Shown here: positions 38,380 through 59,769 of the stretch, in pieces
How positions within the stretch are numbered: position 1 is the stretch's first letter
Layout of the letters: each line of letters opens with the position of its first letter
From: Bradyrhizobium oropedii
Lineage (GTDB): Bacteria > Pseudomonadota > Alphaproteobacteria > Rhizobiales > Xanthobacteraceae
NCBI RefSeq assembly: GCF_020889685.1
Contig: NZ_JACMYO010000017.1
Span: 1 to 64,000, forward strand
Direction: 5' to 3'
DNA: 64,000 nt
The notes under the pieces: model-generated
Told to the model about the DNA's origin: nothing
The model's database searches: none
The model's input: only the letters and a program-made list of their open reading frames with translations
Made by a program: the position numbers and the translations under genes

Positions 38380-38396
38380 GCGAACGGCTCCTCAAC

Positions 38397-39797: not shown

Positions 39798-39867
39798 CGT
39801 TTCTCATCCCCGCACTTGGCACGACGCAAGCGCAGGCACTGCCCACCACCGCGCATGCGCCTCCGGC

Positions 39868-39891: not shown

Positions 39892-40080
39892 TTTATTTGG
39901 CGGCAAAAGCAAAAAGCCACCCGCCCCTCCAAAACGAAGGTGACGAATGGCCCAAATGCCGCGGCTATGATCTATCGCTAGGGTCCGGGATCGAACGGAG
40001 CACTCTGCGCGGCGATCGGGACGTCATCGGCCAAATCGACGCACGCAAGGTTCGACAGGAAGCCCTGTAGGAGAAAATTC

Positions 40081-40090
40081 TAAGGAGGTG
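40081..40090 (+). promoter_or_regulatory. Perfect Shine-Dalgarno without an assigned gene
   Basis: TAAGGAGGTG is a full complement to the usual 16S rRNA 3' end. GTG at 40090 is too close. A TTG at 40100 opens a frame that runs on in a shadow frame of the next gene. The AmiC-like gene cannot start here, because its frame has a TGA at 40206. Confidence 0.45.
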
Positions 40091-40217
40091 TGCAGCGCGT
40101 TGTCAACGAGGCTGGCTGCACAAATTTCGCAACGTGCATGCGCAGCAAAACGGCATGACCTCTTGCACCGACCTCTGCGAAGATGGTTTCCTTCGAGAGT
40201 TGCACTGAAAGTCGTCG

Positions 40218-41381: not shown

Positions 41382-41965
41382 GCAAACCGTCTTCATTCTC
41401 ATTGCGCGGGCGCAAGGCGCTCATTGCCATCAAGGACGAGCGCGACGCCACGATCGTCAGGCGGCAGTTCGAGCGTCTCGGGATCGACATCGTCACATGG
41501 GATGGTGGCGCCAATATCGACTGTCGACCGGATGTGACGCTGATCGACGACGAGTTCCTGCCGCTCACCTCGCCGGCCCAACGCGCGGCGCTTGGACGAA
41601 GCCCGGTCATCGCCCTGCTCGGCACCGAGACGCCGAGCCGCCTGAAGCTGGTGCTCGACCTCGATCCGGCCTCGTTCCTGGTCAAGCCGCTGCGCTCGGC
41701 CGGTATCTATGCTGCGCTCGTGCTGGCCTTCGAACGAAGCGAACGCACCAGCGAGCTGAAACAGCAGGTGGTGAAACTCGAACAGCGGCTTCGATCCCGT
41801 CGCGTCGTGCTCGCCGCAGTTCTCCAGGTCATGCACACCCATGCGCTGGCCGAGCCGGCCGCCTTTGCGCTGATCCGGCGGGCCGCCATGGAGCAGCGCA
41901 AGACGATCGAGGAACTCTCGGCCGAGATCACGGCAAACGGCTCCCTGCCCCGGGCAACCGGATAG
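41378..41965 (+). CDS. AmiR-like ANTAR antiterminator
   Basis: 195 residues. The N-terminal ~125 residues are a degenerate receiver domain: LIDDEF and VKPL are left, but the phosphoacceptor pattern is weak, as in AmiR. A coiled coil (SELKQQVVKLEQRLRSR) leads to the three-helix ANTAR RNA-binding domain (VVLAAVLQVMHTHALAEPAAFALIRRAAM). The ATG overlaps the AmiC-like stop by four bases. In the known system AmiC releases AmiR when amide binds, and AmiR prevents termination in the operon leader RNA. Confidence 0.88.
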   Translation: MSKPSSFSLRGRKALIAIKDERDATIVRRQFERLGIDIVTWDGGANIDCRPDVTLIDDEFLPLTSPAQRAALGRSPVIALLGTETPSRLKLVLDLDPASFLVKPLRSAGIYAALVLAFERSERTSELKQQVVKLEQRLRSRRVVLAAVLQVMHTHALAEPAAFALIRRAAMEQRKTIEELSAEITANGSLPRATG

Positions 41966-42020: not shown

Positions 42021-45000
42021 CTAGTTCACAACCTGCCGGCGTTCATCCGGCGTCAACTTCTTCAACTGCTCCGCGTTCAATTGGCCGTCGCCGATCAACT
42101 GGAAGGCGCTGTTCGGATCGTATTGGCTTTGCTTGTCGTTGCCGCGCCGCTTTTGGTCATCGCCACCGTCGTCGCCGCCGTAGCCGAGCACTTCGACGAT
42201 GATGACGGAGGGCTGCTCGTTGGTCCGCGGCGGCGGCATGGCGGCTTGCTGGGCGGCTGCGCCCGCCGTGTTCGAGGCTTCGCTCAGGGCGCCCATGTTG
42301 GGCGCCTGGACCTGCGGCACGCCGATGACGCCACCCTGCGCCTGAATGTTGGCGGCGTTGACAATATGCAGCGCAGCGATGTTGACGAAACTCGACGCGC
42401 GGATACCCGCCTCGCCGGCATCGACGGTGCCGAGCGGAGCGATCAGATCGACCGTTCCGCGCGGTACGTCCGGAATCGGTTGCAGCGTCGCGATGCCGGC
42501 ACCGCTCGACGGCACCACCGGCGATATCGTGATGTTGCCGTAGCTGTCGTAAGTGCGCTTGGGCGGCGTATAGATCACGGTGGTCTTGGCGCCGCGGCCG
42601 GCGTTGATGTCGCCCTCCGCCGACCAGATGACGATGTTGCCGCCGAACGTCGTCATGATGCGCGACAGGCCCATCAGCACGCTGTTCTGCGAATAGAGCT
42701 GGATGTTGCCCGCGCCTTGCGTGATGAGGCCCGCGTCGGCGCCGGGCACCAGCCCTTCGGTCCCGATCGTGACCCCTCCGCCCGGCGTGAGGAACTGGAT
42801 GTCGCCGCCGAAATCGGTGTGAACGAAGCCACTTTGAATGGCGTAATTCGGCTGGCCCGGCGTACCGATCGTCGCGGTGAACATCGTGATGTCGCCACGG
42901 TAAGCGGCATCATTCGGGAACAGCGCGGCGATCGCTTCGCGCCCGCGCAGATAGGAGCCGGCGCGCGGGCCGCCGATCTCGTTGTATTCGCGCCCGCCCG
43001 CGGTCAGCTCGGCGTAGTAAACCTGCCGCAGGAAGATGTGCCGCTGCGCATCGGGCAACGCGAGGAAATAGCTGAGCGCATCGGCCTTGGCCCCGCCATA
43101 GCCGAAGCGATCCTTGAGCCAAGCGCAGAGCTCGTCTCCATAGGTCTTGGCCACCTTGCCAGGTTGGTCAGCGATCGGCCCCGCGCCTGCGAGATTGTTC
43201 GGATCGAGATAAAGCCTGGCAAAGCCGGACCAGTCGACCTGGCCAACGCCGACCTCGCCTGCACCAACGCCGGCCTGCATGACGACACCAGCGCCGAGCC
43301 GCTTGTCGCCGGCAACGAGCGCGCCGATGCTTTCGACGGTCGCCTTTGATCCCTGATAGATGTTCCCGGCCGCCGTGATTTCGAACGTACCCGGGCCGGC
43401 GATCGCCCAGCCTCCCTTCGCGTTGGGTTGAGATCCCGGCCAGCCTGCATAGATGATGTTGCCGCCGGCCGCGATGGTCGACACATCGTTCTGACCGCTA
43501 TGCAGGATGAGGCCCAACGTATCGACGATGTCACCGCCCGCGAGCATCTGTAGCGGCCTGGCGGCCTGATAGTAGACGCTATTGACGGTACCACCCGCGG
43601 TGGTCTGGCTCTTCGTCAGGATCCAACCATACGTGACGTTCGTGATATCGCCGTTCACTGCATAGATGCGCGACAGATCGCTTTGGGCTGGCACAGCCCG
43701 ATCCTTCACCGTGTTTGCATCGAACACGAAGGGCTGCCCGCCGCTACCGTAGGAGTAAACGGGTAGCGCGCCGCTTGGTTGATCGTCCACAGCGGTATAG
43801 TCGCCCCAATAGTTGGAGGCAGTGATCGTGATTCCATTCGTCAAGCTCGCCCAGCCGGGCCTGAACGGCGTTGCCAGGCCCGACGCCGGTGTCATCAACA
43901 GCCCCGTCTCGTGCGCGTTACCAAAGATCGATCCCTGCGCCAGCACCTCGAGCGTGCCGCTCGATGACGGCAGCAGCATTCCCCCGCCAAGGCCATAAAT
44001 GTTTCCGTTCGTGGCAACCGCCCGTACGATCGAGGGCAGGAAGTGGGAAGCGGTCGCGCCGCTGCCGGGCGACAGCGAACCACCTGCGGCCATCATGTTG
44101 ACTGCGGTTGTCCCGGTCCACAGCGTGAACCAGCTCGCGCCCTCGTCGCCATTGTCGGCAGCGGTCAGGCCGGTCGTGCCGACACGCCCCGGATCGAGAA
44201 TAGTTCCCACCGCCAGATCGCCGCGCGCACGGATATCGATCACGCTGTCGCCCGGTGCAAAATCTCCACCGCCGAGCGTGGTCATCGAATAGGGCGTCAA
44301 CGGATTGATCGGCCGCGGATCTATCCCGATATTGCGGTCGTTGCCGGCGACGAGGCTGCCGAAGTCTCCCGTCGCGATATCCATGCGTCCCCGGAGATTG
44401 ACGAACTGATTGCCGCCGGTGCCGATACCACCCGCCTTCACCGACAGCGAGCCACCGCCGGTCTGCATAAGGCTGCCATCGGCCATCACACGCCCACTGC
44501 CGCCGACGGCGATGACGAGGCCACGGCCAGCGTCACCCATCATGCCGCCCGCCTGCACCGTGACATTGCCGCCGCCGAGCGTGCCAAGGCCGGAGAAGGC
44601 CGAGAGATTCAAGGCCAGCGTGCCATTGTTGAACGCCGGATCATATGTATAGCTACCGAAATTGATGCCCCAGGCGGTCCGCTGGCCGATCTCCGAACCA
44701 CCCTGGCGCCATAACCATGACCCGATCTCAGTCGCGCGATTCGTCAGCATGCCTTTGACGTCGCCTTGCGCGACCAGCAGGAAGTCCCCGCCATGCTCGG
44801 GGTAATACATCCGCTCCGAGCCGAGCGTCGCTTGATAGCTGGCGTTCGCCGACCCCAATACCGTGCGGTCGGTCAATACGCCCCGGTCGAGGTTGTAAGG
44901 ATCATTCGCCGCCGTTCCCGTCTCCTTGATCGCGGTGCCAGCGGTGTAGACCCCGAACGGCGATTGCTGGTCGTAGCTGCCGCCCGCGAGAATCTCGAGA

Positions 45001-48000
45001 TCGCCCGTACCGGTGCGTACGACGCTGACTCCGGTCGTCGTCGGCTTGTTGATGGTGACACTAAACGGATCGTTCAGCACCACGTTGCCTGAACCTGCCA
45101 GCGCGTTCGCGGTCTGCAACATGCGGCTGTCGGCGCCGGCAAGATCGGCGCCGCCGACCAGCCGCATTGACCAGGATTGCGTTTCGGGAGCGAGCATCGG
45201 CGAGATCGCCCAGACCTGGCGATCACCAGGTCCCGTCAGCATGCTGACGGTCGTTCCCTCAGGCAGCACGAAGCCGACCGGCAGATTGACGTCTTGGCGG
45301 AAGGTAAAACCTCTGAAGAGAGTCAGATCCGAGTTGGGGGGAAGCTTCATCGGTTGAAAGATGACTCCCGCGCTCAGGAATCTGTTCGCACCTGGACCAT
45401 CGAAATAGATACCCGCGCTGAGCTTGGTGCCAGGCTGCCAGTTCACCGTACCCTGGATCAGATCGCCTGCCTTATAGAGGACACTGCCGTCCGGGGCGTA
45501 GATGTTCCCACCTCTTAACGTTGGCTTGAGGGATACGGGCAGGGTTAGCCTGAACGGTTGTTCCAGTAGGAAATCGACGGGCAGCGGATGGGCGCTGCTG
45601 GGAGTGGCGCCGAGCCTGCGATCGATGCCCGGACCGGTAGCCGTAAACTCCAGCCACAGGTTCACACGAGCCGTTGCCGGGAGCTTCGATCCCGTCCCGA
45701 GCGTCGTTCCTCCGAATTGGACAATGTAGCCACCGGCCCCCACCGTGGCGTCCTGCATCAATGTTACGACCGAGTCAGGCGACGCCGGCGGCGGCGCGAA
45801 GCCATCGGTGATACTGCCGTTGATCTTGAGATCGGTGGCGGCGCGGATGACGAGCACGCCCGGTTCGCCGGAGCCGCGCACCGCCGGATCGGCTTTTGGC
45901 CCGTAGCGATAGCCGGAGAGATCGAGATCGCCCTTCGTCGACAGACCACCGCTCGAGGTGATGGCAACGCCGGGCCGCAGATGGAACACGGAGCCATAGG
46001 CCGCAAGCCCTGCCAGGCGGCTCTGCAAGTCACCATTCTGGAGCGCCGCGTTGATGAATGCCGTGCTGTCATTGTGCAGAGCGTCGAGATAGGCCTGATC
46101 GATGATACTGCCGCCCGGAAGATCGTAGGTGCGGAAGCCGTTCATCGCGATGCTGCCGGCACCGCGAATATTGAGCGGCCCACGCGCGTCAACAGCGATA
46201 TCGTTGGCGCCCGCGCCGTCTCCGCCGGTGCCGCCGCGGCGCGGCGCGTTGAGCTCGAGCCTGCCGCGCGTCACGCCATCCGGCGAGCTCATGTCGATGG
46301 TCGCCCCTGCCGCCAGCGTCATGGTGCCGTGCGTGGTGGTGAGCTCGACATGTGCGGTGTTGCCGGCTTCGACCGGCGCGCCGTAGCTGTCGGTTTGCAG
46401 CACATTGCCATGGGCATCGAGCACGGCATTCGCCGTGAGCCTGAGATCGTCGCGTGCGGACAACCGGATGGTGCCGGGCTTGGCGCCGCTCGCGTCGATC
46501 CTGCCGTTGACCGTGAGGCTGCCCTGATCGACCGCAACCGTCACGGTGCGCGCCTTGACACCGTCGCCGATGACGAGGCTGCCCTGCCGCAGATCGAAGC
46601 TGCGGCCGCCGAAGAAACCGGCGTCGTTGAGCTTGGCATTCAACGCGCCGAAATCGCCGAAATTCTGCGCCGCGACCGTGAACTGCCCGCTGTCGTAATC
46701 GCCGGTCGACGATCCCCTGAGCGTGCCGGCGAACGAGACCTGCCCATGCGCCGCGTCGATCGCCTTGGCCGTGATCGAGCCCGCGGCATTGTAGGCGGCC
46801 GAGACATCGATCACCGAACCCGCATTCTGGATGATGTTGCCGTTGGTAGAGCTCAGGATGAGATCGCCGCCCCAGCTGAACTTGGTGACGTCGAAGAAGG
46901 CGATGCCGCGGCCCGACAGGTCGACGGTCGCGCTTGCGCCGAGCACGACGTCGTGCGTCGCATTCAGCGTCAGCTTGCCGGACGGCAAGGCGAATGCGGT
47001 GTCGGCAAATACACTGTCTCCGGTGAAGGAGAGCGTGCCGCCGAGATCCGTCACGCCACGCGTGTCGGCGGGCGCGGCCCCCGCTGGCGCGACCAGACGC
47101 AAGGCTGCGCCCGCGCTGACATCGAGCGTAGCCCCGCCGCTCGCCGTGATCTGCGGGGTCGCGATGGTGAGCGCGCCGCCCTGCAACGCGCCGGTGCCGT
47201 CCTGGCTGAGCCCCACCTTCAGCGTGCCGTTGCTGTTCGCGGTGATGCGTTTCGTAGCCGTCAGCGTGACATCGGAGAAGCCAAGCGCAATGCGGTTCAA
47301 CGTTGCGCCATCGGTCGGCTTGGTCAGTGAAGCGTCGTAGCCGAACAGAATCTCGCTAGCCGTGATGGCAAGATGACCCGATCCCGTGCCGGGCCCGCCG
47401 GGAAGAACAGCGCCGGGCGCCTGGCTGCCGTAAGGGATGGTCCCGCCGTTGCCCGTGCGAATGCCATTCCAGACCAGCGTGTCGGCGGTGATGCCGGCGG
47501 TATCGCCCGCGGCGCCGAGACCATAAATGGCCGGCGCATTGAGAACGAATTTGAGAGCATCGGAGGAGGCTCCGCCCTGACGCGTGGTGTCGAGGTTGAC
47601 GCTGCCGATCAGATTGAAGGCGCCGCTTGCCGTGATGATGAGTTGCTCAAGCACGGGGCTGCCGGCAGTCGTCGACGGCCGCAGCAGCTTGTCGAGCACG
47701 CTTTGGGTGAGATTCCAGCCCGTTGGCAGTTGGCCTGCGGCCTGCGCCGCTGCAAGCGCGGCCTCGGTGCCGACATTGACCTGCTCCTGCGTGACGTTGA
47801 GGTAACGCGCACCGAAATTGACGTCACCCATGGTGAGTCCACCCGGCGCAGCAAGCACCACGCTGCCATCGCTGAGCAGCGAAGCACCGCTCGCGATACT
47901 GATCGTTCCGGGCCCAACGGCATCCAGAAATTGGAACCGGCCGTTGGCGACCGCGAGCACAGCCGGACTATAGGCAGGGTTTGCAGTCGAGTCAGAGGTT

Positions 48001-51000
48001 ATGTTGGCGTAGAAATAACCCAGCGTGGAATCAACCGCGTTGCTGCTCAGTCCGCGCGTGTCGATGGTCGCGCCGCCCGCCATGTTGACCGTCTTGCCGA
48101 TCAGGAACACCTGGCCCGCGCGAATCGTAGCGCCGTCGAGCAGGTTGACGGCCGTGGTCGAGCTCCCATCAAAGTAAATGTTGGCGCCGGCCCCGGGATT
48201 GTCAGTCTCGGAGTACACGCTGGCGCCACCCAGCAGCACCGTCGATGCCTTGAAGGCATTGATGTCGTCGCTCGAAATTGACGTATGACCCGCTATCGGT
48301 GCGGTTCCCGGCGCAGTGATGTCGAGCACGCCGTCACCCGATGAGGCGAGCCGCGGCCTGATCACCAGCGTGCCGTCGACGCCGCCTTTGGCGCCGTCGA
48401 ACAGCGCGGTGCCGGCGAACGACAGCGATTTCGCATTATCCGGCGACGCAAAGAGATTGAAAACGAGAATCTTGCCGTCTTCGGGCAGGCGATACCGGAA
48501 GCCGCCGAACTGGGCTGCCTGTGCGCGCTCGAAATCGGCATAGCCGGTCTCGTTATACTGCGAATAGAGCCGCGTGGTCTGGCCTGCGGTCAGGATCACC
48601 CGTGTCGGCAGCGTGTCCCTCATTCCAGTGTTGGCAACGCCGAGATAGCCTGAGGTGACCACTGAGCCGTTGCCCGCGGTCACGGGCGCCATCATCGTCG
48701 TTCCGGTCGCGCCCAGCTCGACGCGGTAACCGCCGGGCAACAGGGCATAGCTCGAAGGGAGCAGCGTATAGGTGCCCGCGGGCAATCCCGGCACACCCGA
48801 AGGAAGCGTGATCTGCTGGCCGATCACGGGATCACCGGCACCATTGGTTGCGATCACCGGCGCGTAGTCGGCTGCGCTGCCCGGCACGATCGCATAGACC
48901 TTGTTGCCCGCGGCGCTGTAGCTGTTGACCGGATTGGCATTGACGAGTGCGGTCTTCAACACATCGACCGAACCGCCACGACCGGAGATGAAGCCTGCGC
49001 CGGTGAGCGTGCCGCCGCCGGAGAGATCGAGCACCGAGCCCGGCTCACCCACGACAGATACGGCATTGACCGAGATGCCGCTGCCGATCTTCAGATTGCT
49101 CGAATGATCGTCATAAAATGCGCTCGCCAGGTTGTGCAGCGTGCCGTCCGCGCCCTGATAGGTGATGCCATCCGACGTGCCGCCAAACGGCATGATCAAG
49201 CCGGCTGCGCTTGCGGAGGTGATGCTTCCGCTGCGGAAGGTGATCCGTGCCCCGGCATCGCTGTTGAACGAGATGCGCCCCAGTGGCGCGCGAAGAACAC
49301 CCCCCTGGTCGATATTGGCGGCAACAAGAGTTAGATCGCCGAACACCGCAGCCGGTACCGCCGGTGTCTGGTCGTCGTTGCGGCGGATCACGAGACGGGC
49401 GTCGGGATCATAGGCGGCACTTATTCCATTCGGACGGAGCCCAACCGCGATCGTGGCGACCGCGCCGCTCAAGGGATAGATCTGGTCCGCGGTGAGCGCG
49501 AGATTTTCAACATCGAGGCCGCCATTGCCGAACCGGATATCACCGCTGCTCTGCAACGCGACTTGATGAAAGCCGCGGGCATCGAATGGAATGCTGACCG
49601 GACGTCCGGGACCGAAATCGACCGCCCCACTGCCCTGCACGCCGGTGGCTCCGAACAGGACGGAGCCGTAGACATCGATCAAGTTGCCTGCGACGGAGAA
49701 ACTTCCGCCCGCCGCCGGATTGCGGACGTGGAGATTGTTGATCCCGGGCGCATATCCCATCGACGTCTGCGCATCTGCTTCGTTGTAGACGCCATCGAGC
49801 CGGACATAGGGCGCCGACAAGCGAACTGTGCTGTTCGGGGTGTCAGGCGCCGCGGCGATGACGCCGCTCGAAAGCCGGAGGCTGCGCGACAGGCTGAGAT
49901 CCACATTGCCGTCGAAGATGAGAAGATCGCGGGTAAAGAGCGCGAGCGAGCCGAAGCCGCCCTTCTGGACCTGATTGATGCCAATCACGGCGCGCCCGAA
50001 TTGCAAAGCCGGATCGGCCTGACCGGGCGACAGATCATCGCTCAGGCCACTCCCCGCAGCGTTTTGCACGAGCGTGATGTCGCGCGACCTCTGGAACGCC
50101 TCAGGCAAATCGCCGCTGGCATAGGGCGCGTTTGCATTCGGCTGTCCGACGATGTAGCCACGCCACGACATGGTCAGGTTAAGCGCGCCGCCGGACGCGC
50201 CGCTGCCGCCGGCCGCCGCGCGCAAGGTGCCATCAAGCGCCATACCGAAACTCGAAGAGAGCGAGATCGAGCCACCATCGCTAGCGGCAGGCGTCGGGAT
50301 ATAGCTGTCGCCGTTCAGGACATCGACCAGCGCGGAGGTGCCCGACGCGTCGATCAGCGCACCCGGGCGAACGATCACGAAGGCATCGCTGACGGCAGCC
50401 GCGGCCCCTATGCCGCCGATGCGGATCGTGCCGCCGTCCGGCACAGAAGCATAGGAGATCCCGCGCTCATCGCGTCCCACCGCATCACGCGCGGAAACAT
50501 CCAGCACCGCGTCGTCGCCGATCCAGAACGAGCGTGTCAGCCCGAACTCGCCGTAACCGGAATTGTAGTTGGTGTTGCTGGAGGTGTCCTGCAGACTCGT
50601 GATCAGGATATTGCCGGCGGGCGCCGTGATCGCGCCGTCGATGACAGTCTGGCGATTGGCGAAGATCGAGACTGAACGCCCCGGATCGACGTTGATGGAC
50701 GCGCCCTTGGCCAGCGTGAAATCATGCAGGCTCCAGAACGTCACATCGGCGCCGACGCGCTGCGTGGTACTGCGCTTGAAGGAATCGATCGTGAACCTCT
50801 GTGGCGTCCACAGCTCCGCGGCATCCGAAACGAGGCTGCCGCTGGGCGCGGTGTAGCTGTGCTGCGTGAAACGATAGATCGGCACCTCTGCATCCACGCG
50901 CGTGCCTTCGCCGATCTCGATGCCTGTGTTGCTGCCGATGTTGTAGGCGGTGAAACCGGACCGGAATATCGCGGGGTCGAGCACCAGCGCATCGGCCACC

Positions 51001-53969
51001 GCTTCGCCGATCGCAATCTCCTGGCCTGCGTTCAGCGTCAGCGTGCCGCCGCCGCCGAATCCGTACGCGCGAATGGTGCCATCAAGGATGAGCGGGTTGG
51101 TGAAGAACTGCGTCCAGGCCAGATGCGAATAGTCATTGGCCACGAGGCTGACATTGCCGCCCTTGCCGCCCTGCGTCTTGCCGGTTCTCAGGATGGCGCC
51201 ACCTGACGACACATCGATGAGCGATCCGCTCGCAAGCGTGATGCCGCCGGTCGTCGAAACAATGAAGTTGCCGCCATCCAGATGCGCCCGGCCCGATCCA
51301 TCCGTTCCGGTCTGTTCGTTGCTCCATAGCCCGCTGAGATCGACGGCGACGTTCTGGCCGACCGTAACCTGCGACTTGCCGTTCGCGCCGTTCAGCGCCC
51401 ACCATTGCTCATTCTGGTTCTGGCCGAACACGGCGTGCATGAGGTTGGTCAGCGTCACACTGCCACCATGCGCCGTGACGTTTGCGCCGAGTTCGACGTG
51501 CGGCGCCGCGAAGATCACCTGCGCGCCAGGCGCAAGCTCAAGCGGCGCCTCGACCAGAATTTCCCTGCTGCTCGCAAAGTTGAGACCGCCCAGCTTGGCG
51601 GCATTGAGCGCGTCGGAATTGAAGAATGCAGTCCCGATGCGATCGTCGGGCAAGATCGACGTGGCGTTCAGCGCCTCGGTGATCCCGGGCGTCTGGCCGA
51701 AGACGACGCGCGCGGCGGATGCAGCGGTGAGGCCAAGCCCGGAATAGCCGCCCAGCGCGAGCTTGCCCTGGAGCGGCGCAACATACTGCGACAGCTTGTA
51801 GCCATCGGTGACGCAGTCCGGCCGAGCCGTCGTCTGGCGTGAGCCGGTGACGACGTCGGCAACGATGTTGGCCTCGAACACCGCCGTCGGCGTCGACAGA
51901 ATCAGAGAGCCGGCGTCGCGGCCGATGGTGTAGCCATCCTCCCAGCGGCTCGTCACGCGGCCCTTGCCGAACGGGCTGATCCAGATTTCAGTCAGATTCG
52001 ACGCAACCTTGCCGCCGAGCTTGTGCTCGTGAACAAAGCCGCCGCCGAAGCCGTAGAACTGCACGTCGGCGCGCGCCTGCCCGACACCGTAGACACGGCC
52101 GTCCGCCCCAAGGAAATTGGTGGTGCGGATATAGCCGCCTTGATAGCTCACCGAGCCGCCGGAGACGTCGAACACCGCCCCCTTCTGCGCTACGACTTCC
52201 TGTGCCGACAGCGTGACGGTGCCGCCGAGCGCGGCCCATTCGCCGATCCGGTGGGCGGTATTGGCGAGATATCCCGAGACCTCGAGCAGGCCGCCTGGTG
52301 TATAATCTCGGTCGGTCGCATAACCGCCGGTGCCTGCCGGCACCAACACCAGGTCGCGCGCGTCGATCCAGACATCCGCGTTCTTCAGATAGCCCTGATC
52401 ACGATTGGCGGGCGAGTCGCGCAGCTCATTGCCTTGCACGTTGATCAGCAGATTATTGGTCGACATCGGCAGCAGCACGCCGCGCACGCCCGAGACGTCG
52501 ATGATGGATCCACTCTCGGCGAAGACGCGGTGGCTGGCGTTGACCGCCACCTGGCCGCCTTGCGCCTGCGTGGTCGAGCTGTCCTTGAAGTTGACGGTGC
52601 CGCCGCTGACGATCTCGATACGTCCCTGGTCGAGCCGGTCGGCGAGCTGTGACAGGTTATCGAACTGGGCGTTGGCGACCGGGGCGTGGGTGAAAGCCTT
52701 GGAATCGGCGACCAGCTGGCTGCGCTGGCTGTCGAGCGCGGTGTCGCTGCTGGCGAGTTCGGGCAGGATTGCGGTCAGGCTGCCGCTGCCGAGCGTGATG
52801 GTGCCGGCAGCATCGGAGGCCGAGTTCAGCAGGTGGATGGTACCGCGGGTGTTGACCGAGGTCGTGGCGACAAGCAGCCCGCCCTGGGTGATGCTGCGGC
52901 CCGCGAGCGTGATGTCGCCTTGCTGGGTGAAGATCAACCCGGAGTTGCCGACAGCCGCGATCGCGTCGCGGACGATCGGCGAGATTTCGTTGCCGCGCGT
53001 GGTCGAGGCCTGGTTGGCGTCGGTGCTGTAGCCCGGGCGAAGCAGGAAGTCGTCGCCGGCGGCGAGTTGCACCTGGCCGCGCGGCGCGCTGATCGAGCCG
53101 GCGTTGTTGACCTCGGTTCCCATCAGCAGGACGAAGCCGCCGCCCTGTGTCACCGAGGATGGCGCGTTGGTCGTGATCAGCGCGCCGGCCTCGACCGTCA
53201 CGGCACCGCGGGCCCCGGTGAAGCCCGGCACATATTGGCCGCCGGCTTGCTGCGCGTAGATGCCGTTGGTGAGGAACTGGGTATCGGCGATGTTTGCAGT
53301 CGAGGCGATCAGTGAGCCGACATTCACCTGGCTCGCGCCGCCGAAGATGATGCCGTTCTGGTTGATCACATAGACCGAGCCGTCGGCCTTGATATTGCCG
53401 AGGATCTGGCTCGGCGCCATGCTGCCGACCACGCGGTTGAGCGCCACCCAATTCGCATTGCCTTGCTGGTCGAAGGTCAGCGTGGTGCGTGCGCCGACGT
53501 TGAACGAATTCCAGTTGAGGATCGCCTGCGCCCTGGTCTGCCGGATGCCGACCTGGGTCTGGCCGGCGGCATCGACCGCCTGCGTCGGCGCATTGGCACC
53601 CTGCCATCCCGGCGCCGCCTGCAGGCCACCGGGCGTGAGACCGTTGGGTACGGCAACCTGCGGCAGCGTCGCCGAGCGCTGCGAGGCCTGCGCTGAGCTC
53701 CGCGCCGCATTCTGCAAGGCCTGCATCGCCTGGATGGCGCGTGTGGCCCGCGCCATCGCATCCTGACCTTGCTTGGCCGCTGCTGCCGCATCCTGCGCAG
53801 CCGATTGCGAAGCTGCCATCGCCGCGGCCGATGGTGATGCTGTCCAGGCCGATCCAAACGGGCGGGCGGCGACCGGCGCATTGGCAAGAAGTGCCGCGAC
53901 GCTGACGCTGCCAAACAATGCAGCGCGAACGGTTGCGCTGGATAGAGACCTGGAGAAGCGGGGAACCAT
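42021..53969 (-). CDS. Giant filamentous haemagglutinin-family protein (TPS domain, DUF3739-type)
   Basis: 3982 residues in one uninterrupted frame. The ATG at 53969 is used because it opens a signal sequence (RAALFGSVSVAALLANAPVAA); 43 upstream codons look non-coding. An Ala/Gln-rich coiled-coil segment (residues ~47-100) precedes the TPS secretion domain (~145-260), with WNSFNVG (153-159) and NQNGIIF (203-209). Then come thousands of residues of Gly/Asn/Asp-rich beta-helix repeats. The C-terminus (VPRGTVDLIAPLGTVDAGEAG, then a Gly/Asp/Arg/Gln-rich tail) fits the DUF3739 haemagglutinin family of Bradyrhizobium. A secreted adhesin is inferred. No TpsB pore gene is adjacent. ECF sigma and FecR genes lie upstream on the same strand, suggesting control by surface signalling. 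Confidence 0.9.
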   Translation of the reverse strand: MVPRFSRSLSSATVRAALFGSVSVAALLANAPVAARPFGSAWTASPSAAAMAASQSAAQDAAAAAKQGQDAMARATRAIQAMQALQNAARSSAQASQRSATLPQVAVPNGLTPGGLQAAPGWQGANAPTQAVDAAGQTQVGIRQTRAQAILNWNSFNVGARTTLTFDQQGNANWVALNRVVGSMAPSQILGNIKADGSVYVINQNGIIFGGASQVNVGSLIASTANIADTQFLTNGIYAQQAGGQYVPGFTGARGAVTVEAGALITTNAPSSVTQGGGFVLLMGTEVNNAGSISAPRGQVQLAAGDDFLLRPGYSTDANQASTTRGNEISPIVRDAIAAVGNSGLIFTQQGDITLAGRSITQGGLLVATTSVNTRGTIHLLNSASDAAGTITLGSGSLTAILPELASSDTALDSQRSQLVADSKAFTHAPVANAQFDNLSQLADRLDQGRIEIVSGGTVNFKDSSTTQAQGGQVAVNASHRVFAESGSIIDVSGVRGVLLPMSTNNLLINVQGNELRDSPANRDQGYLKNADVWIDARDLVLVPAGTGGYATDRDYTPGGLLEVSGYLANTAHRIGEWAALGGTVTLSAQEVVAQKGAVFDVSGGSVSYQGGYIRTTNFLGADGRVYGVGQARADVQFYGFGGGFVHEHKLGGKVASNLTEIWISPFGKGRVTSRWEDGYTIGRDAGSLILSTPTAVFEANIVADVVTGSRQTTARPDCVTDGYKLSQYVAPLQGKLALGGYSGLGLTAASAARVVFGQTPGITEALNATSILPDDRIGTAFFNSDALNAAKLGGLNFASSREILVEAPLELAPGAQVIFAAPHVELGANVTAHGGSVTLTNLMHAVFGQNQNEQWWALNGANGKSQVTVGQNVAVDLSGLWSNEQTGTDGSGRAHLDGGNFIVSTTGGITLASGSLIDVSSGGAILRTGKTQGGKGGNVSLVANDYSHLAWTQFFTNPLILDGTIRAYGFGGGGTLTLNAGQEIAIGEAVADALVLDPAIFRSGFTAYNIGSNTGIEIGEGTRVDAEVPIYRFTQHSYTAPSGSLVSDAAELWTPQRFTIDSFKRSTTQRVGADVTFWSLHDFTLAKGASINVDPGRSVSIFANRQTVIDGAITAPAGNILITSLQDTSSNTNYNSGYGEFGLTRSFWIGDDAVLDVSARDAVGRDERGISYASVPDGGTIRIGGIGAAAAVSDAFVIVRPGALIDASGTSALVDVLNGDSYIPTPAASDGGSISLSSSFGMALDGTLRAAAGGSGASGGALNLTMSWRGYIVGQPNANAPYASGDLPEAFQRSRDITLVQNAAGSGLSDDLSPGQADPALQFGRAVIGINQVQKGGFGSLALFTRDLLIFDGNVDLSLSRSLRLSSGVIAAAPDTPNSTVRLSAPYVRLDGVYNEADAQTSMGYAPGINNLHVRNPAAGGSFSVAGNLIDVYGSVLFGATGVQGSGAVDFGPGRPVSIPFDARGFHQVALQSSGDIRFGNGGLDVENLALTADQIYPLSGAVATIAVGLRPNGISAAYDPDARLVIRRNDDQTPAVPAAVFGDLTLVAANIDQGGVLRAPLGRISFNSDAGARITFRSGSITSASAAGLIMPFGGTSDGITYQGADGTLHNLASAFYDDHSSNLKIGSGISVNAVSVVGEPGSVLDLSGGGTLTGAGFISGRGGSVDVLKTALVNANPVNSYSAAGNKVYAIVPGSAADYAPVIATNGAGDPVIGQQITLPSGVPGLPAGTYTLLPSSYALLPGGYRVELGATGTTMMAPVTAGNGSVVTSGYLGVANTGMRDTLPTRVILTAGQTTRLYSQYNETGYADFERAQAAQFGGFRYRLPEDGKILVFNLFASPDNAKSLSFAGTALFDGAKGGVDGTLVIRPRLASSGDGVLDITAPGTAPIAGHTSISSDDINAFKASTVLLGGASVYSETDNPGAGANIYFDGSSTTAVNLLDGATIRAGQVFLIGKTVNMAGGATIDTRGLSSNAVDSTLGYFYANITSDSTANPAYSPAVLAVANGRFQFLDAVGPGTISIASGASLLSDGSVVLAAPGGLTMGDVNFGARYLNVTQEQVNVGTEAALAAAQAAGQLPTGWNLTQSVLDKLLRPSTTAGSPVLEQLIITASGAFNLIGSVNLDTTRQGGASSDALKFVLNAPAIYGLGAAGDTAGITADTLVWNGIRTGNGGTIPYGSQAPGAVLPGGPGTGSGHLAITASEILFGYDASLTKPTDGATLNRIALGFSDVTLTATKRITANSNGTLKVGLSQDGTGALQGGALTIATPQITASGGATLDVSAGAALRLVAPAGAAPADTRGVTDLGGTLSFTGDSVFADTAFALPSGKLTLNATHDVVLGASATVDLSGRGIAFFDVTKFSWGGDLILSSTNGNIIQNAGSVIDVSAAYNAAGSITAKAIDAAHGQVSFAGTLRGSSTGDYDSGQFTVAAQNFGDFGALNAKLNDAGFFGGRSFDLRQGSLVIGDGVKARTVTVAVDQGSLTVNGRIDASGAKPGTIRLSARDDLRLTANAVLDAHGNVLQTDSYGAPVEAGNTAHVELTTTHGTMTLAAGATIDMSSPDGVTRGRLELNAPRRGGTGGDGAGANDIAVDARGPLNIRGAGSIAMNGFRTYDLPGGSIIDQAYLDALHNDSTAFINAALQNGDLQSRLAGLAAYGSVFHLRPGVAITSSGGLSTKGDLDLSGYRYGPKADPAVRGSGEPGVLVIRAATDLKINGSITDGFAPPPASPDSVVTLMQDATVGAGGYIVQFGGTTLGTGSKLPATARVNLWLEFTATGPGIDRRLGATPSSAHPLPVDFLLEQPFRLTLPVSLKPTLRGGNIYAPDGSVLYKAGDLIQGTVNWQPGTKLSAGIYFDGPGANRFLSAGVIFQPMKLPPNSDLTLFRGFTFRQDVNLPVGFVLPEGTTVSMLTGPGDRQVWAISPMLAPETQSWSMRLVGGADLAGADSRMLQTANALAGSGNVVLNDPFSVTINKPTTTGVSVVRTGTGDLEILAGGSYDQQSPFGVYTAGTAIKETGTAANDPYNLDRGVLTDRTVLGSANASYQATLGSERMYYPEHGGDFLLVAQGDVKGMLTNRATEIGSWLWRQGGSEIGQRTAWGINFGSYTYDPAFNNGTLALNLSAFSGLGTLGGGNVTVQAGGMMGDAGRGLVIAVGGSGRVMADGSLMQTGGGSLSVKAGGIGTGGNQFVNLRGRMDIATGDFGSLVAGNDRNIGIDPRPINPLTPYSMTTLGGGDFAPGDSVIDIRARGDLAVGTILDPGRVGTTGLTAADNGDEGASWFTLWTGTTAVNMMAAGGSLSPGSGATASHFLPSIVRAVATNGNIYGLGGGMLLPSSSGTLEVLAQGSIFGNAHETGLLMTPASGLATPFRPGWASLTNGITITASNYWGDYTAVDDQPSGALPVYSYGSGGQPFVFDANTVKDRAVPAQSDLSRIYAVNGDITNVTYGWILTKSQTTAGGTVNSVYYQAARPLQMLAGGDIVDTLGLILHSGQNDVSTIAAGGNIIYAGWPGSQPNAKGGWAIAGPGTFEITAAGNIYQGSKATVESIGALVAGDKRLGAGVVMQAGVGAGEVGVGQVDWSGFARLYLDPNNLAGAGPIADQPGKVAKTYGDELCAWLKDRFGYGGAKADALSYFLALPDAQRHIFLRQVYYAELTAGGREYNEIGGPRAGSYLRGREAIAALFPNDAAYRGDITMFTATIGTPGQPNYAIQSGFVHTDFGGDIQFLTPGGGVTIGTEGLVPGADAGLITQGAGNIQLYSQNSVLMGLSRIMTTFGGNIVIWSAEGDINAGRGAKTTVIYTPPKRTYDSYGNITISPVVPSSGAGIATLQPIPDVPRGTVDLIAPLGTVDAGEAGIRASSFVNIAALHIVNAANIQAQGGVIGVPQVQAPNMGALSEASNTAGAAAQQAAMPPPRTNEQPSVIIVEVLGYGGDDGGDDQKRRGNDKQSQYDPNSAFQLIGDGQLNAEQLKKLTPDERRQVVN

Positions 53970-54115
53970 GGAATCGCTTTCTTGCGCGGGGCGATGTCGA
54001 ACCGAACATTCGTGTCCCGGCGCCGGTACCGAGACCCTTGCGGCTGTGACGATCCCGAACGGGTCGACCCGCACGCCGGACTCGAACTTTTTTCGCAACC
54101 CCGTTGGCCGCCTCC

Positions 54116-55138
54116 TCAGCTCAGCAGCACAATGCCGCCGGGAAGTGTTTTCGCTTTCACGCCAAAGGCTTGCTCGAGCTGCACGAGAACCTCGTCGATC
54201 CGATCGATATGGAAGCGCCCGTTGATCAGATGCGCGTTCAGCTCGGCATTGACGATGAAGATCCGGCCCGATCGGTACCGGTTCACCTCTTCCACCACCT
54301 TGGGCAGCGGCGTGTAACGGAAGATGAGCAAGCCCTCTTGCCAGGCCGCTTCGACCGCCGGATCGATTGCGACGATGTCGCTTAAACGCCTCTCGTCATA
54401 AGCGATCTGCTGCCTCTCACGAACAGTGCGGGCATTCCCCTGATGCTCGACGCGAACCTCGCCCCCCAGACAGGTGACACGCACCTCGACGCCGAGGTAA
54501 CGCACGTCGAACGAGGCTTGCGTCGCAACCGTTTGACCACTGAACGCGATCACAGTCACGGGTCTCGACAGCTGCGGGGTTGTCGCGATCGATGCCTGTC
54601 CGGTGATCAACTCGATCCTGCTGGTGTCGCCGTGGTCCGGCCGCAGCGCGATGCTGGTTCGCGAGTCCAGGTTGATCGAGACGCTGTCGCTCAAGGCAAG
54701 CTTGCGCTGCTCTCCCGCCCCCGTCCGGTAATCTGCCGCAAGCTCGGACCATGACGGCCAGAGCTCGAGCGGGGGACGCAGCGCGACTGCCCCGGCAGCT
54801 ACGGCCGCGGTCGCAAGTCCGCCGCGAAGGACCAGCCTGCGGGTCATCACGCGCCTTGCTTCGCCATCAAGCAACGCGCCGAGCGATGCTGGGTCGTACC
54901 GGAGGTTATGACCGGCGTTGCCAACCGTCTCCCAAAGCTTGCTTGCGTTCGCAAAAGCAATTGCGTGGGCTGCGCTCTGCTGGCGCCACAGCTGGAATGC
55001 ATCGGCGTCCTCGACCGTCGCGTCTCCGGACGTCAAGCGCCTCACCCAGGCGTGTGCTTCCCGCTCCATTGCGCCGAGCCCCATGGTCGATTTGCTGCCC
55101 TCGCTGGTCATTCGGACTTGCCTCGCAGCGCACGCCAT
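54116..55138 (-). CDS. FecR-type anti-sigma/transmembrane signal transducer
   Basis: 340 residues. The ATG at 55138 is chosen because GGAGG lies six bases upstream; earlier (55174) and later (55111) ATGs are possible. The N-terminal cytoplasmic DUF4880 part (REAHAWVRRLTSGDATVEDADAF) is followed by one membrane helix (VLRGGLATAAVAAGAVAL), then the periplasmic FecR domain (YRTGAGEQRKLALSDSVSINLDS, with RIELITGQA) and a C-terminal STN-like fold (FRYTPLPKVVEEVNRYRSG). It would hold the ECF sigma factor (55206-55709) inactive until signalled from the periplasm. It lies between the sigma gene and the giant haemagglutinin. Confidence 0.9.
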   Translation of the reverse strand: MACAARQVRMTSEGSKSTMGLGAMEREAHAWVRRLTSGDATVEDADAFQLWRQQSAAHAIAFANASKLWETVGNAGHNLRYDPASLGALLDGEARRVMTRRLVLRGGLATAAVAAGAVALRPPLELWPSWSELAADYRTGAGEQRKLALSDSVSINLDSRTSIALRPDHGDTSRIELITGQASIATTPQLSRPVTVIAFSGQTVATQASFDVRYLGVEVRVTCLGGEVRVEHQGNARTVRERQQIAYDERRLSDIVAIDPAVEAAWQEGLLIFRYTPLPKVVEEVNRYRSGRIFIVNAELNAHLINGRFHIDRIDEVLVQLEQAFGVKAKTLPGGIVLLS

Positions 55139-55205
55139 CGGCGGCCTCCGCAGCCGGATCGTCCGCTTGTCCATTTGACGTTCGCCATAGCCACAAACCG
55201 CACAA

Positions 55206-55709
55206 CTATTTTCCCAGCCTCAACGCGCAGTGTTCCTGGGCGAGGCGGAGCTCCTTCTCGACCAGACGCAACGAGACCCCAAGCCGGCTGGCGATTTCCC
55301 TCTGCGGCATCCCCTGAAGCCGCGCCGCCAACAGGATGACCCGACGCCGCGGCGTCAGTTCCGCAATCGCCTTCTCCAAGGCCTCGATCTCGAAGCGGGC
55401 CTCCGCAATCTGACCCGGCCCCGGCGCTTCGTCCACGATATGCAGCAGATCCTGGACCTCGTTGCGGGCCAGGCGCCGCTTCTCTGCCCGCTGCCGATCG
55501 ATTGCGACATTGAAGGCCATGCGGAACAGATACGCGGCCGGGCTTTGGACCGAACCCGCCACCTCCGCACGTCCGAGACGCACATAGGTGTCCTGCAACG
55601 CATCACTGGCCAGCTCCGCCGATCCCAGACGACGGCTAAGCCGCAGCTTGAGATCATCGTAACGGGCAGCCAGGAAGCTGCGGAGCATGGTCCGGGTTGC
55701 GTCACTCAT
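55206..55709 (-). CDS. ECF sigma factor (FecI-like)
   Basis: 167 residues. Region 2 is SELA-type (LGSAELASDALQDTYVRL, then AYLFRMAFNVAIDRQRAEKRR); region 4 is LTPRRRVILLAARLQGMPQREIASRLGVSLRLVEKEL. No region 1 or 3, as normal for ECF factors. The ATG at 55709 lies 10 bp after the STN protein stop, and the FecR gene follows. The set is a FecI/FecR-type pair. Its target promoter is presumably upstream of one of these genes; I could not identify it by eye. Confidence 0.91.
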   Translation of the reverse strand: MSDATRTMLRSFLAARYDDLKLRLSRRLGSAELASDALQDTYVRLGRAEVAGSVQSPAAYLFRMAFNVAIDRQRAEKRRLARNEVQDLLHIVDEAPGPGQIAEARFEIEALEKAIAELTPRRRVILLAARLQGMPQREIASRLGVSLRLVEKELRLAQEHCALRLGK

Positions 55710-55719
55710 TGCGGCACGC

Positions 55720-56478
55720 TCAGTTCGCTTGGCCGCTGGTACGGATTGCGTCGATGCCGGCGCAATCCTGCGCCTGTTCCGACGGGCGCGGCGCAACAAC
55801 CATTGTGAGGGGCTGCGAGATGCCCGGCGGGGGCACCTCCTTCATTCTCAATCTGCGAAGCGTGGTCTCGATCGCGCTATCGACGCGTCCATCGCCGGTC
55901 TTGCTCAGAAGCCTGGTCTGCTGGACGGTTCCGGTTGGAGCGATCCAGAACTGCACGGCGATCCGATACCGGCCGGGCCGCAGCACTGTATCCCGGCAGA
56001 ATGCGTCCCTCACGCGCTCCTGCACCACGGCATAGTAACGGGCGCGAATGACTGGATCGCCCTTTAGCGCTTCGGCGTCGGGCGTCGTCCGCTGCCCGGC
56101 AGCCGGAGACGAGGGCACAATCACCACTGCATTCTCGGACGTCAGACGGCCGACAAGGCCGGTCCCATCGAGCAGGATCTGCAAGGCTTCAGATGGCGCG
56201 AAGACTCCCCGCACCTCGCCCGAGAGCCGGCCGGTCGCAAGCCGCGCGTCGTAAAGCACCTCGCGCTTCGATGTGGCGCCATAGCTTTCCAGCGCGGACG
56301 TCAGGGGTTGCGAGGGAATATCGAACGTGATGCGCGTTGCAGAGGCGCCCGGCCCCTCTTGTCCCACGGCGACATCGGTGCCGGCGCCCAACATGCAAAG
56401 GCAGATCAAGACGCACAATCGACGAGGAGCGTCTGAGGGGCCTCCCGCCAAGCCCCTCGAAAGATATCGAATGCTCAT
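55720..56478 (-). CDS. Free-standing STN-domain protein with TonB C-terminal-like domain
   Basis: 252 residues. A signal peptide (RRLCVLICLCMLGAGTDVAVG) is followed by an STN domain at residues ~48-120 (ITFDIPSQPLTSALESYG, then LSGEVRGVFAPSEALQILLDGTG), and after a linker by a TonB_C-like domain at ~165-235 (YRIAVQFWIAPTGTVQQTRL, and DSAIETTLRRLRM). STN domains normally sit at the N-terminus of TonB-dependent receptors and pass a signal to FecR; here there is no beta-barrel. It comes just before the sigma and FecR genes, so it probably acts as the periplasmic signal input to FecR. This combination is unusual. Confidence 0.82.
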   Translation of the reverse strand: MSIRYLSRGLAGGPSDAPRRLCVLICLCMLGAGTDVAVGQEGPGASATRITFDIPSQPLTSALESYGATSKREVLYDARLATGRLSGEVRGVFAPSEALQILLDGTGLVGRLTSENAVVIVPSSPAAGQRTTPDAEALKGDPVIRARYYAVVQERVRDAFCRDTVLRPGRYRIAVQFWIAPTGTVQQTRLLSKTGDGRVDSAIETTLRRLRMKEVPPPGISQPLTMVVAPRPSEQAQDCAGIDAIRTSGQAN

Positions 56479-56604
56479 CGTATCCGCGTCGATTGTTTCC
56501 CAAGCGGGCCGCTGTGTCCAATCTGCAACGTTAGCGCCGAAGTGTGACAGCGGTGCGTAGGCTCGCGGAGGAGGATCTGAACCGTCCCGGGACGGCAGCA
56601 CCCT

Positions 56605-58911
56605 CTATTTCTTCAGTTCGCCGTAGAGCTGCATCACCCGTTGCGGCAACACCTCGATCCGCGGCACTCGGAGGGCACAGCGTTCACCGAAAATGCGATC
56701 GAGCTGGGGAAACCTGTCCTCGCCGATACCAAAGGCGAAAATATCGGTGCCGCGCCGCCGCAGCTGCTGCGCGGCACGGCGTGCATCCTCGACGAGATAT
56801 TGCGGATCGGGCACATCGACATCGGAGGGCTCGCCGTCGGTGAGGACCAGCAGCACCTTCCGGAACGCGCGCCGGCCTGCGAGGTAGCCGCCGGCATGGC
56901 GCAACGCCGCCCCAAGCCGGGTGGAATGGCTGCTGCCAAGCCCCGCGAGCCGCGCACGAACGACGGCGTCCATCGGCTCCTCAAAGCCCTTGATGCGCAG
57001 ATAGCGGACGCGCTCGCGGCCGTCGGAGCTGAAGCCATGCACCGCGATCGCGTCATTGGCGGCGTCGACCGCCGTCGCCATGATCGCGGCCGCCTTGCGC
57101 TCGACATCGAGAACCGTCCGGCCACGGCGATCACGATCGGCGGTCGATTGCGACAGGTCCAACAGCAGCAGAATCGCGAGATCGCGCGGTCCCGGCGCAT
57201 CACGCTGGTAGACCCTGGGCTCGCTGATGCTGCCGGCGCGACGCTCGATCGTCAGTGCGATCGCCGCGTCGATGTCGAGCGCATCGCCATCACGCTGGCC
57301 TTTATGCCTGATACGGCGGCCGATCGACGCGTCGCGGGTCAGCTCGGTGATCCAGCGCATCGCCTCGGTGTCCGTCGAAGGATCGAACGGCTGCGCGGAA
57401 ACGTCGGCATCGGCTTCCAGAATCGTGGTCCAGTCCGCCCGTTCGGTACGCGCCGCATAATCCCATTCCGGGTAGGTCGCGACTGGAAATCCGTCCAGCA
57501 GCGTCACCGCGCTGGCCTTCGCGCGCAGCGTCTCGTCCGGTTTGGCGCTGTTATCGATTGATTGACCGCTCGGATCGTCACGTCGTTCGATCCGTACCGA
57601 ATCGATCGCAAGTTCGATCGTCTCGGTCGGGCTGTCCGGCTGGTCGCCAAAATCCCACAGTGCCAGATTGTCGTCGCGGTACGCGGGTTCGACGACGTAG
57701 CTCTTGGCGTTGAATTGCAGCCGCATCTGCCCGATGTCGTTGCCGAGCAATCCGCCGATCTCGCGGCTGATGGCCGGATCGGTCCAGCGGCCGGCGGCAT
57801 CGGCAAACAGCTGACGTCCCTTGGTCACCCACGCATCCGGATCCTGATAATCCGGATCGATCAGTGCCCGCGCCAGCCGCATCATCAGTCCGGCTGCGGT
57901 TGCCTGGCCGGATGACGTCACAGTGTGGAACGGCAGCCACAGCCGGCGCAGGCCGGGCATCTCGCGCAGCGCCAGGGTCTCGACCCTGGCATCCTCGATC
58001 AGCGAGACCAGCGCAATCTGCAGCGCCTTCAGTCGCCCGACAGGAAAGCGGACGGTGGAATGCGCCAGATGCGCACCGGCATGCGCGACCGCCGCAAGAT
58101 AGATAGCGTCCGCCGCCTCACCCTCGAAGCCGGCAAAGGTCTCGGGAAGGCCGATGAGTCCGGTGGCGAGCGACGTGCGCCGCGGCACCGGCGTCGGTGC
58201 AATGGCTAGCTTGCGGAAGCGTGGCTTCCTGTTCCACAAGGCGATCATTGTCGCAGCGAGGCGTTTCTCCAGCCGTGCGAAATCGTCGCCGGTCCGGCCG
58301 ACGGCAAACAACCGCGCCGAGAGCGGATCGTCGAGCGCGAAATAAGTGCGCCGCCGCGCCGCGCGGCCACCGCTTGCGCGCAAGCCGGCGGAAACCCAGG
58401 CGGAGAAATCCTCGCCGCCGGCATGCGCAAGCAGTTGCCCAAGGCGGCCGATCGCAAGGCCGACCGATTCCGGCCCCACATCTGCGAGCTCGCCAAGCGC
58501 GGCAAGAACGGTGGAGAGCTCTCCTGCGCCCGAGAGCCGGGGTAGCACCTTGGACATTTCGGCCAGCAGCCCATGGGCAGCGCGGCTGCCGGCGTTGCGG
58601 CCGATATCCCCAGCGGCACGGCCGATCGCGATCAGGTCATAGGTCGATCGCGGCGCTCGCCATTGCTGCGACAGTTGCAGAAAGCCCGACAGCACGGCCT
58701 TGCCGAGATTGGCCTCGAACAGGTCGTGCACAGCCTCGTCCCAGGCCGCGAGATGATCGGGCGGAGCCATCCGGTACAATGCGGCCCGGGCCGCCTGCAC
58801 GGCCGCGCCGATGTCATCGTGGCCACGCAAGAGCGCCGCAAGCCCGCGTCCGGATCGGAAGCTATCGAGCGAACTGATTTGCGCGACCGCCACCTCCGAG
58901 TTTCCATTCAC
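56605..58911 (-). CDS. VWA-domain protein of the CbbO/NorD type
   Basis: 768 residues; the GTG at 58911 overlaps the AAA+ gene stop (GTGA). The C-terminal ~200 residues form a von Willebrand A domain with the metal-ion site motif DLSQS ([12 protein letters not shown]), [17 protein letters not shown] and [13 protein letters not shown]. The long N-terminal part is alpha-helical and typical of the CbbO/NorD group. Such proteins work with the MoxR/CbbQ-type ATPase encoded just upstream as activators or insertases for specific enzymes. Here the neighbours are AmiE, an NCS1 permease and a MetX-like hydrolase, so one of these is the probable client. Confidence 0.88.
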
Positions 58912-59735: not shown

Positions 59736-59769
59736 GATAGCGCAGGCAGTCGTTCGCAATCGCTTGAGA

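Follow-up and report, generated by a model that had tools for sequence, protein, structure and literature searches.

The first 64,000 nucleotides of contig NZ_JACMYO010000017.1 of Bradyrhizobium oropedii (this whole stretch is referred to below as the window) raise the question of what a FecI/FecR-type signalling cassette without a receptor gene is doing directly upstream of a giant adhesin gene. An earlier sequence-only reading described the locus as a free-standing STN-TonB_C protein, an extracytoplasmic function (ECF) sigma factor, a FecR protein and an adhesin of about 3980 residues, all on one strand, and knew of no described system of this form. We conclude that the cassette is of the PUMA3 (VreA-VreI-VreR) type and hence a fresh example of a known system. 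As the best explanation of the whole we consider it highly probable that this is a PUMA3-type cell-surface-signalling cassette dedicated to the adjacent adhesin and acting by the mechanism proposed below. The anatomy of the cassette, its conservation, the common descent of VreR, the fold matches, the family-level enrichment of a pho-box-like element and the single detected TpsB were all computed here. The cassette has the following features.

55720..56478, minus strand: VreA-like protein, 252 amino acids (Pfam STN and TonB_2, AlphaFold2 model, match to the PupB signalling domain)
56113..56259, minus strand: STN domain (PF07660) of the VreA-like protein (Pfam, 8.5e-7)
55822..56043, minus strand: TonB_2 (TonB C-terminal-like) domain of the VreA-like protein (Pfam, 5.6e-8; residues 187-260 of P0001)
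55206..55709, minus strand: VreI-like ECF sigma factor, FecI type (Pfam Sigma70_r2, Sigma70_r4_2)
54116..55084, minus strand: VreR-like anti-sigma factor (Pfam DUF4880 and FecR; PupR match by sequence and fold)
53970..54115, minus strand: vreR-tpsA intergenic region, 146 bases, candidate adhesin promoter region (conserved blocks in an alignment of 8 sequences)
42021..53969, minus strand: giant two-partner secretion (TPS) adhesin (TpsA), 3,982 amino acids (Pfam TPS, PF05860, 4.5e-23; DUF3739, 5.8e-38)

Pfam and the coordinates confirm the gene order of the sequence-only reading: VreA, VreI, VreR and the adhesin are transcribed in this order from the minus strand and together span 42021-56478. 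The VreA-like protein has a hydrophobic signal-like N-terminus followed by the STN domain and a domain resembling the TolA/TonB C-terminus, and Pfam detects neither a barrel nor a plug in it. For the VreI-like sigma factor, FecI models rank among the best matches yet score below their cut-offs. The VreR-like protein consists of DUF4880, a pair of arginines, a hydrophobic segment, a FecR domain and an STN-like C-terminal part, with a FecR_C match just below the Pfam cut-off. The adhesin carries the TPS secretion domain at the N-terminus (also TIGR01901, 1.3e-20) and DUF3739 close to the C-terminus; its length, in agreement with the earlier estimate, and the start of VreA are counted from the first plausible methionine. 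In a related genome (G004) a stop codon interrupts the longer frame upstream of the VreA start, and thus the start at 56478 is supported. The statement that the locus has no receptor gene also stands, as no TonB-dependent receptor was found among the nine flanking window proteins scanned. There is no TpsB gene beside the window adhesin; the only one found in the genome is on contig C66.

The claim of novelty, on the other hand, is wrong, since PUMA3, in print in 2009, has the same form (PMC2729926). P. aeruginosa VreA is described there as a barrel-less bilobal protein with an STN-like signalling domain and a TolA/TonB-like domain, encoded together with the sigma factor VreI and the anti-sigma factor VreR, whose regulon includes a TPS system (PMC2729926). 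The window cassette shares with it the A-I-R gene order, the barrel-less VreA, the FecI-type sigma factor, the FecR-type anti-sigma factor and the link to TPS, and the P. aeruginosa cluster of TpsB, ExbBD, TonB and a putative porin (for the porin, PMC7035377) matches a hub cluster on C66, described below. There are also differences: in P. aeruginosa the Hxc type II secretion genes are placed between vreR and pdtA, whereas in the window the adhesin directly follows vreR; and, unlike P. aeruginosa, B. oropedii has several paralogous cassettes, with the only TpsB found in the separate hub cluster. The arrangement of multiple satellites plus a hub was itself already in print in 2009. Rhodopseudomonas palustris has four such clusters, of which three precede tpsA and the fourth precedes tpsB-exbBD and a PA0696 homologue, compared with five vreAIR cassettes here, and Janthinobacterium is also named as having PUMA3 clusters (PMC2729926).

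With FecA-FecI-FecR and PupB-PupI-PupR the cassette shares the sigma and anti-sigma families and an STN domain with a likely anti-sigma partner. It differs from them in that the STN domain has no plug or barrel, there is no receptor gene, and a TPS adhesin instead of an uptake receptor lies downstream. Two-partner secretion adhesins of the FhaB/FhaC type combine a TPS secretion domain with a very large exoprotein; compared with these, the window adhesin has no adjoining TpsB, bears DUF3739 near the C-terminus and is preceded by a sigma/anti-sigma pair. In the open-access literature we found nothing on the combination of FecI, FecR and filamentous hemagglutinin in Bradyrhizobium, nor on DUF3739. 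Beyond the 2009 account, the present analysis adds how widely the cassette occurs, that its anti-sigma factors descend separately, and that a pho-box-like element is present outside Pseudomonas.

The sequence-only reading had suggested searching for co-occurrence of these genes, and the search supports a FecI/FecR-type cassette with a free STN-TonB_C protein conserved beside TPS adhesins. A scan of bacterial genomes with a VreA-only pattern yielded 58 loci, in 43 of which the VreA frame is short (at most 311 amino acids); the pattern was derived from satellite-type VreA of the window genus, and hence these 43 loci lean to that type. VreI and VreR lie directly downstream on the same strand in 42 of the 43 barrel-less loci. 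Past VreR we observed TpsA (n = 37), TpsB (n = 3), a contig end (n = 2) or a remnant (n = 1), so that a TPS gene comes next in all 40 loci readable past VreR, the TpsA frame being in some of them a short piece at a contig end. The remnant (L097, 9866-11581), a degenerate locus of B. embrapense, contains VreA directly followed by a truncated adhesin end, with the sigma and anti-sigma genes not found there. The sequence-only reading had named loss of the gene association in related genomes as its refutation, and these counts show the opposite. The organisms include Bradyrhizobium, Rhodoplanes, Tardiphaga, Reyranella, Magnetospirillum, Telmatospirillum, Variovorax and Pigmentiphaga. In the remaining 15 loci the match falls in a receptor-sized frame; FecI/FecR-like genes lie upstream in 13 of them, and neither TpsA nor TpsB was found in any of the 15.

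Within the genus (265 genomes), 45 genomes have a strong VreA match, 72 have DUF3739 and 44 have both (Fisher p 8e-30, relatedness ignored). The line for a strong match (E at most 1e-45) was placed in a wide gap, excluding the weak matches of 33 genomes (best E from 6e-11 to 3e-22). Ten VreA candidates were scored per genome, three genomes having at least ten matches, and the DUF3739 count includes one marginal genome (G080, E 8.9e-4), 71 being above the cut-off. Among the weak matches inspected, those in G002, G009, G014 and G022 cover only the TonB-like part and that in G001 is the STN part within a receptor-sized frame of 914 amino acids; all five were rejected. In a phylum sample of 398 genomes, 53 match at E 1e-15, mostly by an STN domain in a receptor-sized frame, and 11 have strong short-frame matches (E 5e-33 or better), two of these being from the window genus. 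We read 11 stretches from eight of the nine strong genomes outside the genus (all but G663), and in all 11 VreI and VreR accompany VreA. Complete cassettes are also present in the annotated records of Methylosinus trichosporium OB3b and Variovorax boronicumulans. A plasmid search matched 60 records, four of them over at least 80% of the query; among the three examined, the Klebsiella pneumoniae plasmid NZ_CP065459.1 (L198, 11968-17731) has vreA, vreI and vreR homologues followed by a gene with a TPS domain.

The anti-sigma factors form a lineage of their own. In a tree of 62 VreR and FecR rows, 38 Vre rows, the window among them, are split from 24 receptor-linked FecRs with branch support 99/97. 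By receptor-linked we mean a FecR from a locus whose STN sits in a receptor-sized frame; four such loci of the 65 loci wanted had no usable row, and P. aeruginosa VreR was not included. One Vre row adjoins a type II secretion cluster (Hxc-like neighbours by Pfam), as reported for PUMA3-Hxc of Pseudomonas. The two arginines in front of the VreR hydrophobic segment (R89 R90) are invariant in 25 sequences; they recall the twin-arginine signal, which is reported for FecR.

In the AlphaFold2 model of VreA (29 sequences; mean predicted local distance difference test score, pLDDT, 80.6) the N-terminal domain matches the PupB signalling domain (6ovm_B, Foldseek E 5.6e-7, template modelling score, TM, 0.88 by target length). 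There are also weak matches to TolA/TonB folds (1lr0, E 0.012; 2x9a_B, E 0.015), as expected for the C-terminal domain. The VreR model (pLDDT 77.9) matches PupR (6ovk_R, E 8.9e-19, TM 0.87 by target length), as does its sequence profile (E 5e-35), and the VreA profile likewise agrees with PupB. VreA and VreR thus each resemble one partner of the same solved complex, PupB:PupR, and we infer from this that they contact each other. Residues of both VreA domains are conserved across 38 sequences. The distances of VreA and VreR co-vary (Mantel r 0.73 over 27 non-redundant cassettes, with none of 2000 permutations as high), while the adhesin distances track less closely (r 0.37-0.48). The input comprised 56 loci, with all four parts present in 50, a TPS domain of sufficient length in 45, and 27 left as non-redundant. 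This co-variation of VreA, VreI, VreR and the adhesin fits inheritance as a unit and is no proof of contact. Two cysteines shared by satellite-type VreA (window residues 161 and 239) flank the TonB_C-like domain, being invariant in 7 sequences and nearly so in 29; both are missing from the hub-type rows L025, L053 and L054.

The B. oropedii assembly (9.04 Mb in 513 contigs), read with profiles built from the window genes, contains five vreAIR cassettes, on contigs C17 (the window), C86, C222, C32 and C66. All five STN matches of the genome fall in frames of 233-358 amino acids and none in a receptor-sized frame; there are 13 matches to the barrel of TonB-dependent receptors, none sharing a contig with an STN match. 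Four of the cassettes (C17, C86, C222 and C32) are satellites, each followed by a TpsA gene. On C66, the hub, vreA, vreI and vreR are followed by genes for TpsB, ExbB, ExbD, a TonB-like protein and a Porin_5 protein, and the ShlB and POTRA_2 models hit the same frame there, the one TpsB detected in the genome. Because only one TpsB was found, we infer that all the adhesins are exported through it, and thus the window adhesin probably uses the TpsB encoded in the hub. DUF3739 gives five matches genome-wide. On C222 the contig ends within the adhesin, and on C32 the first adhesin begins right at a contig edge; these two pieces may be one gene. The DUF3739 adhesin on C5 likewise begins at a contig edge, and absence of a cassette cannot be inferred there. 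In the relative G004, assembled as one contig, we observe four cassettes, three with TpsA and one with TpsB. The hub ExbB (L025, C66, 13490-15529) has N-terminal DUF2341 and laminin-G-like domains. On C32 (L023, 11838-14857) one adhesin is separated from the following vreAIR cassette by an additional FecI-type sigma gene, and this layout recurs in B. mercantei (L067, 9057-12265).

The pho box consists of two CTGTCAY half-sites four bases apart. Using this consensus, we scanned 220 bases upstream of vreA plus its first 40 bases in 30 non-redundant cassettes out of 51; the vreA start is the longest frame in most loci, hence the distances to the element are approximate. The best match averages 10.27 of 14 positions, compared with 8.84 in dinucleotide shuffles (z 9.8, n = 30), and a score of at least 11 is reached in 12 of the 30 sequences, with 0.63 expected. 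Eleven of these 12 are alphaproteobacterial. No such site was found in front of other open reading frames of these loci (0/51) or inside vreR (0/23), and the opposite strand gives a partial signal (3/30, z 3.3). Among gaps of 0-15 bases that of four bases alone stands out (12 versus at most 4). Of 1,259 permuted half-sites none attains the real mean, several of the nearest being shifted forms of the same motif. In the window the element is as follows.

56544..56561, minus strand: weak pho-box-like site upstream of vreA (10/14 positions, one perfect half-site CTGTCAC)

The perfect half-site lies within a block that is conserved across an alignment of eight sequences, one of them from the window. 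Phosphate-starved P. aeruginosa expresses vreAIR via PhoB, and pho boxes are present in the promoters of vreA and pdtA (PMC4971064). The enrichment upstream of vreA, mostly in alphaproteobacteria, suggests phosphate control as in P. aeruginosa. In the open-access literature, which leaves most subscription journals uncovered, we found no paper on such an element outside Pseudomonas. In the vreR-tpsA gaps, 4 of 23 score at least 11 (0.63 expected), a count of 4 also being reached in shuffles (z 2.2), which is at most suggestive.

PBP_like_2 proteins, PstS-like by eye, were seen near three DUF3739 adhesins without a visible cassette, and may be another link of adhesins to phosphate. The neighbour scan covered contig C5 and the genomes G066 and G215, and not G009 or G002; the spans are listed below.

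14323-16314 of L027 (C5): PBP_like_2 neighbourhood
17646-19175 of L150: PBP_like_2 neighbourhood
14084-15640 of L152: PBP_like_2 neighbourhood

The candidate region for the adhesin promoter is the vreR-tpsA gap. A Gibbs search over 23 gaps gave a motif of 12.3 bits, compared with at most 10.5 bits in 12 shuffled sets, and two further runs gave 13.6 and 13.4 bits versus at most 11.5 and 11.8 bits in six shuffled sets each. This signal is soft, since the real set was searched from more starts (48 versus 12 and 16 versus 8) and the gaps are mutually related. A pattern resembling -35/-10 elements, noticed by eye, was rejected: 21 of 300 permuted patterns were as good in 13 independent gaps, and 10 of 300 in the source set itself, where the pattern is also weak.

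By analogy with P. aeruginosa and other work on cell-surface signalling, from which the sigma/anti-sigma action, the VreA-VreR contact, the PhoB control and the export in trans are all taken, the PUMA3-type cassette would work as follows. VreR would reside in the inner membrane and hold VreI; upon cleavage or inactivation of VreR, VreI would direct transcription of the adhesin gene. Periplasmic VreA would bind with its STN domain to the STN-like terminus of VreR and modulate the stability of VreR. Expression of the cassette would probably be gated by phosphate starvation through PhoB, and the adhesin would probably be exported in trans by the hub-encoded TpsB.

Several observations weigh against this account. 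The motif searches fixed no sigma-specific promoter in the vreR-tpsA gaps. DUF3739 occurs without a strong VreA in 28 of the 72 genus genomes having it, and thus DUF3739 adhesins do not need the cassette; in the four such genomes inspected (G009, G066, G215 and G002), neither VreI nor VreR was found in the fetched stretches. The adhesin is not always adjacent: TpsA directly follows VreR in 6 of the 11 phylum stretches, while TpsB lies about 1 kb further on in one, TPS genes are several kb away in three, and in one no TPS gene was seen, type II secretion genes being there instead. Just one of four betaproteobacterial sequences reaches a pho-box score of 11, and the window site, equalled by 7% of shuffles, is non-significant alone. 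Finally, in P. aeruginosa deletion of vreA left expression of the regulon in low phosphate (PMC4971064) and virulence in zebrafish (PMC7035377) unchanged; because of this, the VreA step may be idle or need another condition.

These deletion results speak for a different reading, in which VreA is dispensable: the sigma factor, the anti-sigma factor and PhoB would do the regulation, and the role of VreA would be nil or subtly protective of VreR. We regard this as possible, with the odds leaning clearly against it, since VreI and VreR follow VreA in 42 of 43 loci, both VreA domains keep conserved residues over 38 sequences, and the VreA and VreR distances co-vary, although co-inheritance alone would suffice for the latter.

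Alternatively, VreA could read secretion: its TonB_C-like domain would touch TpsB or an outer-membrane partner, and export of the adhesin would feed back on VreR and VreI. This agrees with the TPS gene coming next in all 40 readable loci, with the weak resemblance of the VreA C-terminal domain to the partner-binding domains of TolA/TonB, and with the hub, which unites vreAIR with TpsB, ExbB, ExbD and a TonB-like protein. However, such a contact is conjectural, TpsB adjoins only 3 of the 43 cassettes, and no VreA-dependent output was seen in P. aeruginosa (PMC4971064, PMC7035377); hence we consider this reading rather improbable.

A split transducer, which we hold to be unlikely, would have its input from an STN-less TonB-dependent receptor encoded elsewhere, whose TonB box would be bound by the TonB_C-like domain of VreA. 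VreA has both the required domains, none of the 13 barrel matches of the genome is on an STN-bearing contig, and in one subfamily of cassettes a gene for a TonB-dependent receptor precedes vreA (L079, L084, L085, L086 and L094 among the 43 loci, and also L051). However, in L085, the one locus checked, the receptor lacks STN and is followed by a PepSY_TM gene, which is an ordinary uptake layout, and no receptor was found in the other 38 of the 43 loci with a profile from three own-genome receptors, some of the stretches being short. A Methylosinus gene of 741 amino acids upstream of the cassette, annotated as a TonB-dependent receptor, has no Pfam match in the form scanned and adds nothing.

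A more elaborate form of the PUMA3-type explanation, which we offer as a long shot, is that the cassettes of Bradyrhizobium and its relatives are mutually insulated and phosphate-gated, each switching on one adhesin and all sharing one TpsB; the TonB_C-like domain of each VreA would report the state of the export gate or of an outer-membrane partner to its own VreR, so that only one or few adhesins would be made at a time.

Finally, chance proximity of an unrelated FecI/FecR remnant and an adhesin gene, to which the assignment of the scanned flanking genes to other pathways might point, is refuted by the conservation counts (five cassettes in the same genome, four in G004, 42 of 43 loci, and the Methylosinus and Variovorax records).

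On the PUMA3-type explanation, signalling by barrel-less STN-TonB_C proteins, a little-studied branch, is present in Bradyrhizobium and in further environmental bacteria; Vre cassettes there frequently occur in several copies and are associated with surface proteins of very large size. As the pho-box-like element is shared, the link to phosphate is suggested to be a trait of the system, not peculiar to P. aeruginosa. What VreA does, also a question in P. aeruginosa (PMC7035377), could well be asked in a host that is not a pathogen and has several cassettes and a single TpsB.

Upstream of the window cassette there are genes for a VWA protein, a CbbQ/NorQ-type ATPase, an alpha/beta hydrolase, a permease and a carbon-nitrogen hydrolase; past the end of the adhesin these are an AmiR-type ANTAR protein, a periplasmic binding protein, an amidase and an acetamidase/formamidase. 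The cassette is thus surrounded by what looks like a region of amide or urea utilisation (36112-41965 and 58908-63999 of the window). The periplasmic binding protein adjoins the ANTAR protein in an AmiC-AmiR-like manner, and the permease is of the purine/cytosine type.

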